Origin: Naumannella cuiyingiana
GTDB taxonomy: Bacteria > Actinomycetota > Actinomycetes > Propionibacteriales > Propionibacteriaceae
Length of the DNA: 64,000 nt
Direction: 5' to 3'
NCBI RefSeq assembly: GCF_013408305.1
Contig: NZ_JACBZS010000001.1
Location: 1,798,001 to 1,862,000 of the forward strand
The notes beneath the pieces were generated by a model that saw only the letters and a program-made list of their open reading frames with translations, was not told the DNA's origin and ran no database searches. The position numbers were made by a program, and so were the translations under genes. Below are positions 36,151 through 42,790 of the stretch, in pieces (position 1 is the first letter of the stretch; each line of letters opens with the position of its first letter).

Positions 36151-36429
36151 TCACTTGCCGGAGACGGCGCTCTTAAGCTGGGTGGCCGGCTTGAACGCCG
36201 GAGCCTTGGAGGCGGCGATCTGGATGGTCTCGCCGGTCTGCGGGTTGCGACCGGAGCGCGCGGAGCGCTCGCGGACCTCGAAGGTACCGAAGCCCGGCAC
36301 GGCAACCTTGTCACCCTTGGCCAGCGCGCCCGAGATGGCGGACACGACGGCCCCCAGGGCTTTGTCGGCGTCGGCCTGGGTCAGGTCCGCTTCCTTGGCG
36401 ATCGCGTCAACGAGTTCCTTCTTGGTCAT
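36151..36429 (-). CDS. hup: HU-family DNA-binding protein
   Basis: 92 residues, the short HU form without the Lys/Ala-rich tail of mycobacterial HupB. MTKKELVDAIAKEADLTQAD and the DNA-binding arm VPGFGTFEVRERSARSGRNPQTG are standard. Bends and compacts DNA. AAAGGA lies before the ATG. Its start codon is inside the last 23 bp of cydDC, so its own promoter must lie within that coding region; see the candidate at 36466-36493. Confidence 0.96.
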   Translation of the reverse strand: MTKKELVDAIAKEADLTQADADKALGAVVSAISGALAKGDKVAVPGFGTFEVRERSARSGRNPQTGETIQIAASKAPAFKPATQLKSAVSGK

Positions 36430-39400
36430 GAGATTCCTTTGCTGATTGGAAGTCGGTCGGCTGACACTTTATCCCCACCGGGCCGCCTGTCACGTCGGCG
36501 ACGCGCGTACGGGGCCCCCACGTGTCGCGGATCAGGTCGGGCTGATGACTGACGACGAGAATCGCGGCGTCCGGCAGGGCGGCGTCGATGTCGGCGAGCA
36601 GGGCACGCGCGGTCGGGCTGTCCAGGTGCTCGGTGGGCTCGTCCAGCAGCAACACGTCCGGGCGCTGCGCGAGCACCCGGGCGAGCGCCAGCCGTCGCCC
36701 CTCGCCGCCGGACACCGAACTCCCGTGCTCGCCCACCCGGCGGTCCGGAGGCAGTCCGGGCAGCCCGGCGGCGACCAGAGCGGCGTGCACGGCGACCTCG
36801 TCGGCTCCGGGGTCGCCCAGCCGGACGTTCTCGGCGACGGTGGTGTCGAAGATGTGCGCATCCTGGCCCAGGCAGCCGACCAGCCCGCCGGTGGCGATCC
36901 GGCCCGACCCGACGGGCAACTGGCCCAGCAGCGTGGCCAACAGGGTGGACTTGCCGACGCCGGAGGGACCGGCGATCACCATCCGGTCCCCGGGCCGCAC
37001 GCGAAGATCGACCGGCGGCAGCGATCCGCGCTGCAGGACGAGCTGATCGGCGGCGATTCCCGGCTCTCCCAGCGGCTCCGGTGGCGGCGGGTAGGGCAGC
37101 TCGGCGGCCTGCTCGATCGTCTGCTCAACCCGCGCGATCGCCGCTGTGGAACGGATTCCGGCCTGCATGGCGGCCGTGTGCTGGGCGTACAACTCGTGCA
37201 GCGCCAGCGGGAGGAGCGCGACCGTGGCGATCATGATCGTTGTCCAGGCGCCGCTGGCAGCGGCCTGTTGCGCGGCGATGATCATCAACGGCCAGGCCGC
37301 CGCGAGGACGAGCAACTGTCCCGCCGCGGCGAGCGCGCGTGCGGTGGCCGCCCGCCGCTCGCCGGCGACCAGGGCCGCGTCGGCATCGGCCAGCCGGGCG
37401 AGCTGACGGGCACCGGCCCCGTGCGTGTGCAGCAGCGGAGCGTGCCGATGGATCAGGAAGGCCTGTTCGGCCAGCGCGCCGCGCAGCGTCCCGAGCCGGC
37501 GGTCGGCGCGGGTGGAGATCAGGGCGCCGACCCGGGGCCAGATCCAGCCGGCGAGGACGGCGTACCCCGCGAACAGCGCGGCAACAGGCAGCGACCAGCG
37601 GGCCAGGAAGGCGACCACGGCGACGCTCACCACCGCGTGGGCGAGCAGGGGCAGCCGGGCGCGCAGCACGAGGTCCTGGGCGGCCGCGACGTCGCCGACC
37701 AGGCGGTCGACGAGCTCGCCGTGTCGGCGGGCGGCCGCGGGGGAGTCGGCGAGGGCGGCGAAGGTACGCAGGCGCAACGCCGACTGGTCTCGCAATCCGA
37801 GATCGTGACCGGCCAAGCGTTCCGCATAGCGAAACACCCCGCGGCCGAGGCCGAAGAAGCGCACCGCCACCACGGCCACCATCAGGTGCAGGACGGGCGG
37901 CTGTTCGGAGGCCTTGGCCAGCAGCCAACCGGAGGTGCCGAGCAGCGCGACGGCGCAGCCGGCCGCCGCGGCCCCGAGCAGCAGCGTCCCGGACCACAGC
38001 GCCCGCCGGCGCCAGCCGCCTCGGATCCAGAGCCGGGAGACCAGCCCGTCGCCACCGGATGTGACGGGAGCGGTCCTCGGCTCGCCCGCCCGCGCATCAT
38101 CGTCCCGCGGGCTCGCCTCGCCGGCCGGGTCCTCGACCGGTGGCGTCGTGGCGACCGGGCTCGGCGGGAGCGAGATCACCTGCCCGGCGAGGTCCAGGGC
38201 GGCGGTGCGGTGGCTGATCACGATCACCGTGACACCAAGATCGGCCAGGCCGCGGACCACCCGGGCCTCGGTTGCCCGGTCCAGCCCGGCGGTGGGCTCG
38301 TCGAGCAGCAGGACCTGGGCGCCGCCGCACTCGATCCGGAGCAGGGCCCGGGCGAGCGCGATCCGGCGTACCTCCCCGGCGGACAGGCCCCCGCCGTCGA
38401 CCCCGAGCTCTCGTTCGGGCGCCAGAGCGTCTGCGCCCGCGCGCCGCAGCGCCGCGATCACCCGCCCGGGTGGCGCGCCCGGCGCCCCGAGCGCCACATT
38501 CTCGGCGATCGTCCCGGGCAGCAGTCGAGGATCTTGTTCCACCCAGGCGACCTGGCCGAGCAGGTGTTCGCGATCAAGATCGGCAATGGGTACGCCGCCG
38601 ATCAGGACCCGGCCGGCGACCACATTCCCGTGGCCGAGCAGGGCCCGCAGCAGCGTGGTCTTGCCCGCCCCGCTCGGACCGGCCACCGCCACCACCTCGC
38701 CCGGGCCGATCACGAAGGACAGCTCGCGCTGGGCCGCCGGCGCCCCGGCGGCCGGGGCGAGCGCCGCCTCGTCGAACTCGATCGCCGCCTCGCGCAGATC
38801 GACCCGGGTGCCGCCGGGCGCACGCGACTCAGCGTCGATCAGCGCGAAGGCATCCTCCGCGGCGGCCATCCCGTCGGCCGCATCGTGGTAGCGGGCGCCG
38901 ACCTGGCGCAGCGGCAGATACACCTCCGGTGCCAGCACCAGCGCGAACAGGCCGAGCAACAAGGTGAACTCCCCGGTCACCACCCGCAGCCCGATGCTGA
39001 CCGCCACCAACGCCACGGACAACGTCGCCAGCACCTCCAGCACCAGCGCCGACAAGAACGCGACCCGCAGCACCTGCAGGGTGGCGCCGCGGTGGCGCTC
39101 CTCGACCCGGCGCAGCCCGGCCAACTGGCTGCGCGCGCGGCCGAAGACCTGCAGGGTCGGCAGCCCGGCGAGCAGGTCGGCGAAGTGATGGCCGAGCCGG
39201 GCATTCGAGCGCCAGCGCGCATCCATCCGGTCCCTGGTCGCGAGCCCGATCAGCACCATGAAGATCGGGATCAGCGGCAGTGTGACGGCGATGATCACCG
39301 CCGAGGTCGGGTCGGCGGTGGCGATCGCCACCAGCAGGGTGAGGGGCACGATCGCGGCCAGGACGAGCTGCGGCAGATATCCCGAGTACCACCCGTCGAG

Positions 39401-39778
39401 CGCCTCGACCCCTTCGGTGACCAGGGTGACCAGCCGGCCGCCGGAGGTGTCGGCGGCGAACGGCCGGTCCAGCCGGGCCCGGAGCAGATCGGCCCGCAGC
39501 CGCGACTTCACCGCGGCCGCGGCCCGCTGACCCGCCCACTGCTGCCCGGCCGACAGGGCGGCCCGCACCGCGAAGCCCGCGGCGACGCCGGCGAGCTGGG
39601 GGACGAACTCGGGCCACGGCCGGCCGGCGACCATCCCGGAGACAGAGACCGCCAGCAGCCAGGCCTGACCGATCAGGACCACGGCCTGGGCCAACCCGAG
39701 GACGATCAGCGCACCGACGAACCGGCGAGTGGGTCGGCTGCGCCGGAGCAGGCGCGGGTCAACCGGGCCTTTGGCCAT
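36407..39778 (-). CDS. cydDC: Fused CydD-CydC ABC transporter
   Basis: 1123 residues, two complete ABC exporter halves in one chain: TM domain 1 (about 20-300), NBD 1 with GPSGAGKTTLLRALLG near 368 and LSAGEVRRIALARALL; then a Pro/Ala linker, TM domain 2 (about 585-860) and NBD 2 with GPSGVGKSTLLATLLG near 934, VSGGEGRRLALARVLA and LLLDEPTEHLD. CydDC exports thiols and is needed for cytochrome bd maturation; the fusion is common in actinobacteria. GGAGGG before the ATG, 10 bp after cydB. The C-terminal 25 or so residues run into the HU leader. Confidence 0.93.
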   Translation of the reverse strand: MAKGPVDPRLLRRSRPTRRFVGALIVLGLAQAVVLIGQAWLLAVSVSGMVAGRPWPEFVPQLAGVAAGFAVRAALSAGQQWAGQRAAAAVKSRLRADLLRARLDRPFAADTSGGRLVTLVTEGVEALDGWYSGYLPQLVLAAIVPLTLLVAIATADPTSAVIIAVTLPLIPIFMVLIGLATRDRMDARWRSNARLGHHFADLLAGLPTLQVFGRARSQLAGLRRVEERHRGATLQVLRVAFLSALVLEVLATLSVALVAVSIGLRVVTGEFTLLLGLFALVLAPEVYLPLRQVGARYHDAADGMAAAEDAFALIDAESRAPGGTRVDLREAAIEFDEAALAPAAGAPAAQRELSFVIGPGEVVAVAGPSGAGKTTLLRALLGHGNVVAGRVLIGGVPIADLDREHLLGQVAWVEQDPRLLPGTIAENVALGAPGAPPGRVIAALRRAGADALAPERELGVDGGGLSAGEVRRIALARALLRIECGGAQVLLLDEPTAGLDRATEARVVRGLADLGVTVIVISHRTAALDLAGQVISLPPSPVATTPPVEDPAGEASPRDDDARAGEPRTAPVTSGGDGLVSRLWIRGGWRRRALWSGTLLLGAAAAGCAVALLGTSGWLLAKASEQPPVLHLMVAVVAVRFFGLGRGVFRYAERLAGHDLGLRDQSALRLRTFAALADSPAAARRHGELVDRLVGDVAAAQDLVLRARLPLLAHAVVSVAVVAFLARWSLPVAALFAGYAVLAGWIWPRVGALISTRADRRLGTLRGALAEQAFLIHRHAPLLHTHGAGARQLARLADADAALVAGERRAATARALAAAGQLLVLAAAWPLMIIAAQQAAASGAWTTIMIATVALLPLALHELYAQHTAAMQAGIRSTAAIARVEQTIEQAAELPYPPPPEPLGEPGIAADQLVLQRGSLPPVDLRVRPGDRMVIAGPSGVGKSTLLATLLGQLPVGSGRIATGGLVGCLGQDAHIFDTTVAENVRLGDPGADEVAVHAALVAAGLPGLPPDRRVGEHGSSVSGGEGRRLALARVLAQRPDVLLLDEPTEHLDSPTARALLADIDAALPDAAILVVSHQPDLIRDTWGPRTRVADVTGGPVGIKCQPTDFQSAKESHDQEGTR
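36466..36493 (-). promoter_or_regulatory. Candidate HU promoter inside the 3-prime end of cydDC
   Basis: On the minus strand GTGACA (36488-36493), 16 nt, TAAAGT (36466-36471). It sits 37 bp before the HU start and inside cydDC codons. A moderate match to consensus; it would free HU from the cytochrome bd operon. Confidence 0.4.
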
Positions 39779-39788
39779 CGGGCCCTCC

Positions 39789-40820
39789 TCAGTTGGCAGC
39801 GGGCTCGTCGGAGCCTACCGCCGCCTCGGGCATGTGCTGGGTGCCGAGGCGCCGCCGGAAGACCCAATAGGTCCAGGCCTGGTAGCCGATCACGATCGGG
39901 GTGAAGATCACCGCGGCGATGGTCATGATCTGCAGCGTGTACGGCGTCGACGACGAGTTCGCGATGGTGAGGTTCCAGGCGGGGTTCAGCGAGGAGACCA
40001 TCACATTCGGGAAGAGCGTCGCGAAGACCATGCAGGTGAAGGCGAGGATCGCGACCGCGGTGCCGAGGAAAGCCCAGCCCTCGCGGCCCGCCGCGATCGC
40101 GGCCAGCCCTGCCAGGAAGGCGATCGCCGTCACGCCGCCGAAGACCCAGGTCAGCATGGTGTGGGAGTACGCCAGCGCGGTCCAGGCGATGAAGGCAACG
40201 GCGACGACCGCCGTCGCCAGCCCGATCCGCACGGCGTACCGGCGAGCCCGCAGGCGAAGATCACCCAGCGTCTTCAGTGCGGTGAAGATCGCTCCGTGGG
40301 TGAGGAACACCCCGCAGGTCAACAGCCCGCCGAGCAGGGTGTAGGGCGAGATGAGCGAGGCCAGCGAGCCGACGAAGTTCTTCTCCGCATCGATCGGTAC
40401 GCCCTGCAGCAGGTTGGCGAAGGCCACGCCCCACAACACGCTGGGCACGAAGGAGCCGATGATGATGCAGCGTTCCCAGTTCGCCTGCCAGCGCGGGTCA
40501 TCGCGCTTGTGCCGGTACTCGAAGGCGACGCCGCGGATGATCAGCGCGAGCAGGATCACCAGCAGCGGCAGGTAGAAGCCGCTGAACATCGTGGCGTACC
40601 AGTCGGGGAAGGCCGCGAAGGTCGCCCCTCCGGCAACCAGCAGCCAGACCTCGTTACCGTCCCAGACCGGTCCGATGGTGTTGATCATCACCCGCCGCTC
40701 GGTCCGGTTGCGGGCCAGTTTGGCGAGCAGCATCCCGACCCCGAAGTCGAAGCCCTCCAGGACGAGATAGCCGATCCACAAGGTGGCGATGATGCCGAAC
40801 CAGATGACATTGAGTTCCAT
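39789..40820 (-). CDS. cydB: Cytochrome bd oxidase subunit II
   Basis: 343 residues, about eight or nine TM segments, starting MELNVIWFGIIATLWIGYLVLEGFDFGVGML, here quoted only to its conserved LEGFDFGVG motif; also GPVWDGNEVWL and AFEYRHKRDD. Subunit II pairs with CydA and binds the complex in the cytoplasmic membrane. It lies 12 bp after cydA. Confidence 0.95.
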   Translation of the reverse strand: MELNVIWFGIIATLWIGYLVLEGFDFGVGMLLAKLARNRTERRVMINTIGPVWDGNEVWLLVAGGATFAAFPDWYATMFSGFYLPLLVILLALIIRGVAFEYRHKRDDPRWQANWERCIIIGSFVPSVLWGVAFANLLQGVPIDAEKNFVGSLASLISPYTLLGGLLTCGVFLTHGAIFTALKTLGDLRLRARRYAVRIGLATAVVAVAFIAWTALAYSHTMLTWVFGGVTAIAFLAGLAAIAAGREGWAFLGTAVAILAFTCMVFATLFPNVMVSSLNPAWNLTIANSSSTPYTLQIMTIAAVIFTPIVIGYQAWTYWVFRRRLGTQHMPEAAVGSDEPAAN

Positions 40821-40832
40821 GGCGATCCCCGG

Positions 40833-42284
40833 TCAGTAGGCGAAGGAGAGCGGCTGGTCGTCGTCGGCGATCTCGGGCTGCTGCTCCTCCTGCAGTCCCT
40901 TGCCGATGTAGCGCAGCATCAGGCGTACCTCGATCACCGCGAGAATCCCGTAGATCAACGTGAACGCGGTCAACGAGATGGCAACGTCGATCACCGTGGT
41001 CGACGGCGAGACCCCGGTCGCGGTCGGCATCAGCCCGAAGACCAGCCACGGTTGTCGGCCGGTCTCGGTGAAGATCCAGCCGAACGAGTTGGCGAACAGT
41101 GGCAGCAGCGGCAGGACGACCAGCACCAGCGTGCCGAACCGGGGCAGCCGCAGCAGCCAGCGCGGCACATCGCCCTTGCGGGTGAACCACAACATCGCCG
41201 CGCCGATCACCATGGCCGCCAGCCCGAGGCCGATCATCAGCCGGAAGCTCCAGTAGGCGAGCGGGATGTTCGGCGAGTAGGTGCCCGGGCCCCAGGTGGC
41301 CTCGTAGGCGGCCTGCAACTGGTTGATCCCCTCCACCGGCGCGGTGAACGAGCCGGTGGACAGGAAGCTCAGCAGGTAGGGCACGCGCAGCGACCACAGC
41401 TCCTGGCTGCCGTCGAGCGAGCCGATCGTGAAGATCGAGAACGATGCCGGCTGCGCGGTGTTGTAGAGCGCCTCGGCCGCCGCCATCTTCATCGGCTGGA
41501 CGTGGGTCATCACCTTGGCCTGGAAGTCGCCGCTGATCAGCACGCCGATGCCGGAGATCAACAAGGTGGCCGCGCCGAGCCGCAACGCGTTGACGAAGGT
41601 ACGCAGGGTGCGGTCGGGCGGTTCCTGATCATTCCCGGAGGCCCGCAGCTCGCGGGAGCGGCGCAGAACCCAGTAGCCGGCCACCGCCGCGACGAAGGCG
41701 CCGGCCACCATGTAGCAGGCGAAGATCTGGTGCGGGAAGGTGACCAGGGTGACCTCATTGGTCAGCACGGCGCCGATGTCGGTCAGTTCGGCGCGGCCGC
41801 GTTCGGCGTTGTAGGTGAAGCCGACCGGGTTCTGCATGAACGAGTTCGCGGCGAGGATGAAGTACGCCGAGGCGATGGTGCCGATCGCCACCAGCCAGAT
41901 GCAGGCCAGGTGCACCTTGCGCGGCAGCCGGTCCCAGCCGAAGATCCACAGGCCGAGGAAGGTCGACTCCATGAAGAAGGCGACCAGACCCTCGAGCGCG
42001 AGCGGCGCGCCGAAGATGTCGCCGACGAAGCGGGAGTACTCGCTCCAGTTCATCCCGAACTGGAACTCCTGGACGATGCCGGTGACCACGCCCATCGCGA
42101 AGTTGATCAACATCAGCCGGCCGAAGAACTTGGTCAACTGCAGCCACCGGTCGTTGTCGGTGCGCAGCCAGATCGTCTGCATGACGGCCACCAGGCCGCT
42201 CAGTCCGATCGTCAGCGGAACGAAGAAGAAGTGGTAGACGGTCGTGATCGCAAACTGCCACCTCGCCAGGGATACGGCGTCCAT
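40833..42284 (-). CDS. cydA: Cytochrome bd ubiquinol/menaquinol oxidase subunit I
   Basis: 483 residues with about nine TM segments. His18 (ITTVYHFFFVPLTIG) is the haem b595 ligand position; the GMNWSEYSRFVGDIFGAPLA stretch and LEGLVAFFMESTFLG are conserved. The Q-loop is the short type usual outside E. coli. Reduces oxygen with quinol electrons at high affinity, used under low oxygen or when the bcc-aa3 branch is blocked. First gene of cydA-cydB-cydDC. Its promoter region contains three BlaI-like palindromes shared with the divergent blaI gene. Confidence 0.96.
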   Translation of the reverse strand: MDAVSLARWQFAITTVYHFFFVPLTIGLSGLVAVMQTIWLRTDNDRWLQLTKFFGRLMLINFAMGVVTGIVQEFQFGMNWSEYSRFVGDIFGAPLALEGLVAFFMESTFLGLWIFGWDRLPRKVHLACIWLVAIGTIASAYFILAANSFMQNPVGFTYNAERGRAELTDIGAVLTNEVTLVTFPHQIFACYMVAGAFVAAVAGYWVLRRSRELRASGNDQEPPDRTLRTFVNALRLGAATLLISGIGVLISGDFQAKVMTHVQPMKMAAAEALYNTAQPASFSIFTIGSLDGSQELWSLRVPYLLSFLSTGSFTAPVEGINQLQAAYEATWGPGTYSPNIPLAYWSFRLMIGLGLAAMVIGAAMLWFTRKGDVPRWLLRLPRFGTLVLVVLPLLPLFANSFGWIFTETGRQPWLVFGLMPTATGVSPSTTVIDVAISLTAFTLIYGILAVIEVRLMLRYIGKGLQEEQQPEIADDDQPLSFAY

Positions 42285-42294
42285 GCCGGCAACA

Positions 42295-42344
42295 TACTAC
42301 GGAGCGTCGTACTAGTCCAGGTGGTAGTACTAGGGCCGATAGTA
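42295..42344. promoter_or_regulatory. Three phased BlaI-type palindromes in the cydA-blaI gap
   Basis: Site 1: TACTACG-GAG-CGTCGTA (42295-42311, one mismatch). Site 2: GTACTA-N10-TAGTAC (42309-42330). Site 3: TACTA-N7-TAGTA (42328-42344). Their centres, 42303, 42319.5 and 42336, are 16.5 bp apart and the half-sites overlap. TACTA/TAGTA-type arms match the class of site bound by BlaI/MecI repressors. The cluster lies between divergent cydA and blaI and could control both. Confidence 0.7.
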
Positions 42345-42388
42345 GGAATTCGGTTAGGCTGCACGGTGATGAGCAGGCAGGCGGACAG

Positions 42389-42790
42389 GTGAGCAAGCGG
42401 CGGCAGGCGCGACTCGGCGATCTCGAGCGCGTGATCATGGATCACCTGTGGGGCGCCGGCGGCTCGCAGACCGTCCGCGATGTCTACACCGCCCTCGCCG
42501 AGCGCCGCGAGATCGCCTACACGACCGTGATGACCGTGCTGGATCGGCTGGCCAAGAAGGAACTGGTGGTACGCGAGCGCGACGGCCGCGCCTGGCGCTA
42601 CCAGCCGGCCCAGGGCCGCGACGCCCTGGCCGCCGAGATCATGGACACCGCGCTCGGGGTGGACGCGGGCGAGCGCAGCGCCGCACTGGTCGCCTTCGCC
42701 GACCGGGTCACGCCCGAGGAGGCCGCGCTGCTGCGCGAGGCGCTGGCCGCGGTCGAGGCCGCCGGCGACAAACCACGAACCAAGCGCTGA
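42389..42790 (+). CDS. blaI: BlaI/MecI/CopY-family repressor
   Basis: 133 residues from a GTG. Winged helix in the first 80 residues: LGDLERVIMDHLWGAGG, TVRDVYTALAERREIAYTTV and MTVLDRLAKKELVVRER are the family blocks; the C-terminal half is the dimerisation helix. It is paired with an M56 peptidase gene 7 bp downstream, as in BlaI-BlaR1 pairs. Divergent from cydA with shared palindromes. A 7-codon ORF (MSRQADR, 42369-42392) overlaps its start codon and may couple translation. Confidence 0.9.
   Translation: MSKRRQARLGDLERVIMDHLWGAGGSQTVRDVYTALAERREIAYTTVMTVLDRLAKKELVVRERDGRAWRYQPAQGRDALAAEIMDTALGVDAGERSAALVAFADRVTPEEAALLREALAAVEAAGDKPRTKR

Follow-up and report, generated by a model that had tools for sequence, protein, structure and literature searches.

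BlaI-type boxes in a shared cydA-blaI control region suggest repression of cytochrome bd by BlaI in an actinobacterium

What controls the cytochrome bd genes of an actinobacterium in which cydA stands head to head with a gene for a BlaI/MecI-family repressor? Cytochrome bd contributes to the survival of Actinobacteria, mycobacteria included, under low oxygen and under drugs that target respiration. The window, by which we mean the whole 64-kb stretch of DNA that was analysed, is part of a 3.5-Mb actinobacterial genome. In it cydA, cydB, and cydDC are transcribed leftward, and blaI and the gene of a BlaR-like membrane metalloprotease are transcribed rightward (Table 1), and cydA and blaI thus diverge across a gap of 104 bp (42285-42388), the gap to which an earlier note on this DNA had drawn attention. 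The protease gene starts 7 nt 3' of blaI and forms an operon with it. The cydD-cydC fusion is one ORF of 1123 aa that overlaps, at its 3' end, with the beginning of another ORF further downstream (36151-36429), which reads like an HU-type DNA-binding protein.

BlaI matches the Penicillinase_R winged-helix domain (PF03965) with 88.3 bits against a cut-off of 22.6, which places it in this family, and its nearest solved relative is the M. tuberculosis BlaI (2G9W, 125 bits). The copper repressors CopY and TcrY share the winged-helix family, as seen in a weak match to TIGR02698, but the score lies far below the cut-off of that model and the locus contains no copper transporter.

Table 1. Features of the cyd-blaI locus, in positions of the window
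Feature	Position	Strand	Basis or remark
cydDC fusion, ABC exporter for cytochrome bd assembly	36407..39778	-	TIGR02857 and TIGR02868 both above cut-off, single ORF
cydB, cytochrome bd subunit II	39789..40820	-	PF02322 E=5.4e-110; TIGR00203
cydA, cytochrome bd subunit I	40833..42284	-	PF01654 E=1.7e-160
Predicted cydA -10, TATGTT	42291..42296	-	6 nt before ATG, leaderless promoter
BlaI box 1, TACTACGGAGCGTCGTA	42295..42311	.	perfect TACKACN5GTMGTA; overlaps cydA -10
Degenerate middle element, TACTAGTCCAGGTGGTAGTA	42310..42329	.	two 17-bp registers 3 bp apart, 2 mismatches each
BlaI box 3, TACTAGGGCCGATAGTA	42328..42344	.	2 mismatches; upstream of blaI -10
Predicted blaI -10, TAGGCT	42355..42360	+	inferred by sequence inspection
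7-codon mini-ORF, MSRQADR	42369..42392	+	sequence reading; overlaps blaI GTG start (GTGA)
blaI, BlaI/MecI-family repressor, 133 aa	42389..42790	+	PF03965 E=5.8e-25; 2g9w E=1.6e-35
BlaR-like membrane zinc metalloprotease (M56/M48 type), 288 aa	42798..43664	+	PF01435, PF05569, zinc motif, fold

Comparison of the same gap in relatives yields a BlaI box with the 17-bp consensus TAC[T/G]AC-N5-GT[A/C]GTA. The earlier note had seen three phased palindromes, spaced exactly 16.5 bp from center to center and filling the gap. Five TACTA/TAGTA words are indeed there (at 42295, 42310, 42325, 42328, and 42340), compared with 12 in the entire window, and of the three places in the 3.5-Mb genome that match the pattern TACTA-N5..12-TAGTA, two lie within the cydA-blaI gap. 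These words make up two convincing boxes, box 1 and box 3, the latter with both of its mismatches at the inner ends of the arms, and a third element between them that is degenerate and ambiguous. Since the middle element fits the consensus equally poorly in two 17-bp registers (42310-42326 and 42313-42329), the value of 16.5 bp mixes two 17-bp units with one 20-bp palindrome and does not describe helical phasing; the middle element is possibly a weak BlaI site. The elements also occupy only 42295-42344, about half of the gap. We therefore dropped the 16.5-bp phase in favor of a 17-bp box that occurs in tandem or abutting copies, with spacings between neighboring boxes that cluster at 15, 19, 22-23, and 33 bp in a set of 52 distinct arrays of several boxes, taken from all loci. 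This clustering may reflect fixed packing modes of BlaI dimers. The distance from box 1 to box 3 is 33 bp, the value that recurs in Kribbella arrays. An inner-motif pattern that assumed even spacing, TACTACNNGTAGTA, gave zero matches.

The two boxes lie at the predicted promoters on either side of the gap. Ahead of cydA the minus strand ends in TATGTT-GCCGGC-ATG, a -10 of the TANNNT type at the distance expected of a leaderless transcript. The arrangement TANNNT-N6/7-ATG is found in the window and in all 24 Propionibacteriaceae cydA upstream regions compared (16 with BlaI, 8 without); those family members without BlaI keep the cydA -10 and do not have the box, and three BlaI-less genomes from another family of the order are without this cydA -10. 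On the other side, box 3 would sit at the presumed -35 position of the blaI promoter. Translation of blaI may be coupled to that of a short leader, because a 7-codon ORF overlaps its start codon.

The box is conserved at cydA in related genomes, as the earlier note had proposed to check, and its distribution follows that of BlaI. In a sample of the family and order, a box within one mismatch was found no more than 200 bp ahead of cydA in 16/16 genomes with BlaI and in 0/11 without, a difference with a Fisher p of 7.7e-8 that overstates independence, as the compared genomes share ancestry. An evenly drawn, class-wide sample of 78 genomes shows the same pattern: a box within one mismatch stands at a cydA in 18/18 genomes whose BlaI match reaches 133 bits or more (the window counted) and in none of the 8 without BlaI, 2 of which belong to the family and order sample as well. 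The bit-score line was set once the data had been seen and ancestry is shared among the genomes, which makes the counts less than fully independent. Weaker BlaI matches in the class sample, paralogues included, gave a mixed picture, most of them without a box. A third set consisted of named genomes chosen for having BlaI, from Mycobacterium, Mycolicibacterium, Mycobacteroides, Nocardia, Rhodococcus, Tsukamurella, Nocardiopsis, Thermobifida, Knoellia, Phycicoccus, and other genera, and here a box within one mismatch was present upstream of a cydA in 20/20 genomes where cydA was found. The box on cydA is conserved across at least six families.

Gene order varies around this conserved site. cydA and blaI are divergent neighbors in 19 of 30 loci from relatives; in five further loci 1.3-1.4 kb separates the two genes and the box keeps its place immediately ahead of cydA, and in two genomes of one genus (G005 and G029) the distance is about 5-6 kb and the only perfect box in the genome is the one at cydA. 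In three family genomes a perfect box is found exactly once, at cydA. In mycobacteria, Nocardia, and Rhodococcus, cydA genes unlinked to blaI are preceded by the box as well, and the same 17-bp box precedes blaI in Mycobacterium, Nocardia, and Rhodococcus. Palindromic operators, as in the BlaI/MecI family, are thus found both in the shared gap and in relatives, and the placement of one box before both cyd and blaI agrees with an energy regulon of the mycobacterial type. Comparative genomics strongly supports the central suggestion of the earlier note, that cytochrome bd is under BlaI control: the box is conserved on cydA, is absent without BlaI, and recurs before mycobacterial blaI.

From this pattern of boxes, predicted promoters, and homologs, we consider it highly probable that BlaI represses both cydA and blaI from the boxes in the gap, which would form a shared divergent control region for cydAB-cydDC and for blaI and the protease gene. 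BlaI dimers would bind the 17-bp boxes. Box 1 covers the predicted -10 of the leaderless cydA promoter and would block RNA polymerase there, and box 3, with any help from the middle element, would cover the presumed -35 side of blaI's own promoter and so bring about autorepression. Impaired respiration through the main oxidase would lead to the removal of BlaI and the production of cytochrome bd. The operon structure and the intact zinc ligands make it plausible, and on balance probable, that BlaI is released by the neighboring protease, with cleavage by this co-transcribed BlaR-like enzyme as the most likely route of removal. That the trigger is respiratory or a change in membrane redox state, rather than a beta-lactam, has at least an even chance and perhaps a slightly better one.

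The protease has four hydrophobic segments and the motif HERAH at 169-173, and H169, E170, H173, and E210 are invariant in 30 aligned sequences, the HExxH plus third Glu arrangement of a zinc metalloprotease. The chain ends two residues past the last hydrophobic segment, so that the C-terminal extracellular penicillin-binding sensor domain is absent, and the confident AlphaFold2 model (pLDDT 90.6) likewise shows no sensor domain; the description of the protease as sensor-less is borne out. Its assignment to M56 stands less firmly. The protein has BlaR1-like features, but the Pfam M56 model (PF05569) is matched just below the cut-off (E=1.1e-6, 28.5 bits against 31) and the M48 model (PF01435) above it (E=1.2e-10, 42 bits against 20.3). 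Its fold neighbors are ZMPSTE24/Ste24p (M48) first and S. aureus BlaR1 (M56) second, all of them weak and none with E < 0.001. One cysteine, Cys139 of an AYC-x-P motif, is conserved without exception in 30 BlaR-like proteases that represent several families and is possibly a redox or metal switch.

The distribution of the protease raises the best-surviving alternative, in which BlaI controls cyd but is released by a small ligand, a redox change, phosphorylation, or altered synthesis (for example, through WhiB4 acting on the bla operon), with the M56-like protein only fine-tuning or clearing BlaI. The protease is no constant component of the switch, since BlaI and the cyd box occur in many family genomes where no homolog of it was detected: in most Propionibacteriaceae with both, the protease-family profile found no match or only a marginal one, a search that a very divergent protease could escape. 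Genomes G002, G004, G006, G008, G014, G018, G020, G025, and G028 have BlaI and the cyd box but gave no protease homolog, and in G009 the protease match lies beside a second, more distant BlaI. These family members would have another route of BlaI release, and M. tuberculosis WhiB4 does bind the blaR promoter in a redox-dependent manner (PMC5473688). Against a purely auxiliary role, the protease adjoins blaI in nearly all loci where it is present, and its active site is invariant. We regard release without the protease as a serious possibility that is clearly less probable than release by the protease.

A second alternative is that BlaI serves a beta-lactam or cell-wall response and that cyd is induced only as part of it, as reported for M. 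tuberculosis. The name and history of the repressor family speak for this reading, as does the observation that cydAB, blaR, and blaI of M. tuberculosis rise under a beta-lactam plus clavulanate (amoxicillin-clavulanate; PMC5473688). The absence of a beta-lactamase claimed in the earlier note also holds for the locus but not for the genome, where four class A-like proteins (PF13354) score above the cut-off elsewhere. A genome scan found no exact or one-mismatch box near any of these four genes, however, the protease lacks a penicillin-binding sensor domain, and in some family genomes the only perfect box is the one at cydA. We therefore consider the beta-lactam reading unlikely.

Other regulators of cyd are known, Rex in Streptomyces and Crp in M. 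smegmatis (PMC7739888), and the palindromes could in principle serve one of these or a similar protein, with blaI as a mere neighbor. Those systems share the operon and the logic of making the bd oxidase when respiration is limited, but the regulator and its site differ. The box follows the presence of BlaI among the family and order genomes and precedes blaI where cydA is elsewhere in the genome, and none of the cydA upstream regions of the class sample, the window included, matched a strict Rex-type pattern, which counts against Rex in particular. A role for another regulator is therefore very improbable. That the elements arose by chance as AT-rich repeats within GC-rich promoter DNA is hardly credible, imperfect as box 3 and the middle element are, given their broad conservation, the rarity of at least five TACTA/TAGTA words when the gap is shuffled with its dinucleotides preserved (2 of 20,000 shuffles), and the probability of about 0.0006 that a shuffled 200-bp upstream region contains a box within one mismatch.

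Repression by BlaI may extend beyond cyd. The 3.5-Mb genome contains three exact boxes. Besides box 1, there is one inside a coding frame (C1:793941), which was set aside, and one at C1:3455252-3455268, 36 bp upstream of an orphan gene for a 122-aa membrane protein next to a panC-like gene. The 122-aa protein gene is a possible second BlaI target; conservation cannot support this box, because the protein, which matches no Pfam family, has a homolog in none of 55 relatives. Nine one-mismatch sites all overlap open frames, and since such overlap is weak evidence in G+C-rich DNA, there may be weaker targets among them. A search allowing three mismatches proved too loose, and the list that it produced is incomplete.

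In relatives, the ATP synthase I gene of M. parascrofulaceum and the ATP synthase subunit a gene of R. koreensis each have a perfect box ahead of them, and so do two genes of Nocardia terrae, one for a cytochrome b (QcrB-like) and one called ccs-like (cytochrome c biogenesis-like) from its sequence, with no Pfam match. In the sister species G001, perfect boxes lie ahead of the genes for phosphoketolase and for polyphosphate kinase 2 (PPK2), which suggests a wider energy regulon in the genus of the window. In both Nocardia and Rhodococcus, a box is found between a dxr-like gene and the gene of a DUF2631-type small membrane protein. More tentatively, and with somewhat less than even confidence, we suggest that the core and best conserved task of BlaI across the Actinomycetes is to hold down genes of respiration and energy metabolism, cyd first and then atp, joined by the cytochrome b and ccs-like genes in Nocardia and by phosphoketolase and PPK2 in the sister species. 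Control of beta-lactamase would then be a later recruitment, and the sensor-less protease, with its invariant C139 near the active-site domain, would read the state of the membrane or its redox balance directly rather than a drug.

The best-characterized relatives of this system differ from it in instructive ways. The S. aureus BlaR1-BlaI and MecR1-MecI systems have the same repressor family, palindromic operators, and an operon with a membrane zinc metalloprotease, but here there is neither a penicillin-sensor domain nor a beta-lactamase target, and the target is a terminal oxidase. The M. tuberculosis pair BlaI (Rv1846c) and BlaR (Rv1845c) is closer, with the same type of BlaI, a BlaR-like partner that also has no sensor domain (PMC5473688), and reported targets at cyd and ATP synthase promoters. 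The earlier note had taken the link to ATP synthase as established and the link to cyd as new. ATP synthase is a known mycobacterial target, supported by EMSA on the Rv1303 promoter (PMC12565901), but the connection between BlaI and cytochrome bd is not new either, because PMC5473688 (eLife 2017, citing Sala 2009) states that M. tuberculosis BlaI binds the promoters of both cytochrome bd and ATP synthase. Related mycobacteria have the same 17-bp box before blaI and cydA; unlike here, their blaI is not adjacent to cydA, and the M. tuberculosis regulon includes blaC. In the genome studied here, cyd and blaI have a control region in common, and no beta-lactamase gene with a box was detected. Literature searches found no paper describing a divergent cyd-blaI locus. 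What is new is the dedicated control region shared by cyd and blaI, the lack of a beta-lactamase with a box, the breadth of conservation, and the existence of protease-less relatives in which BlaI and the box are both retained.

The regulation of cytochrome bd is not fully explained by the regulators described so far, because a 7.3-fold induction of M. smegmatis cydAB survived mutation of a Crp site, and a further cis element has been suspected (PMC7739888). The BlaI box, known from the Mycolicibacterium species that we tested, is a candidate explanation for this residual induction, and its position on cydA makes BlaI a specific candidate repressor for cytochrome bd. BlaI, a repressor known mainly from penicillin resistance, thereby appears, from the genes that carry its box, to be largely a switch of energy metabolism, in a pairing that recurs in many related soil bacteria and in mycobacteria. 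Recasting BlaI as an energy regulator would also bring within reach, at a locus whose main target is cyd, the question of what signal BlaR-like proteases without a sensor domain detect.
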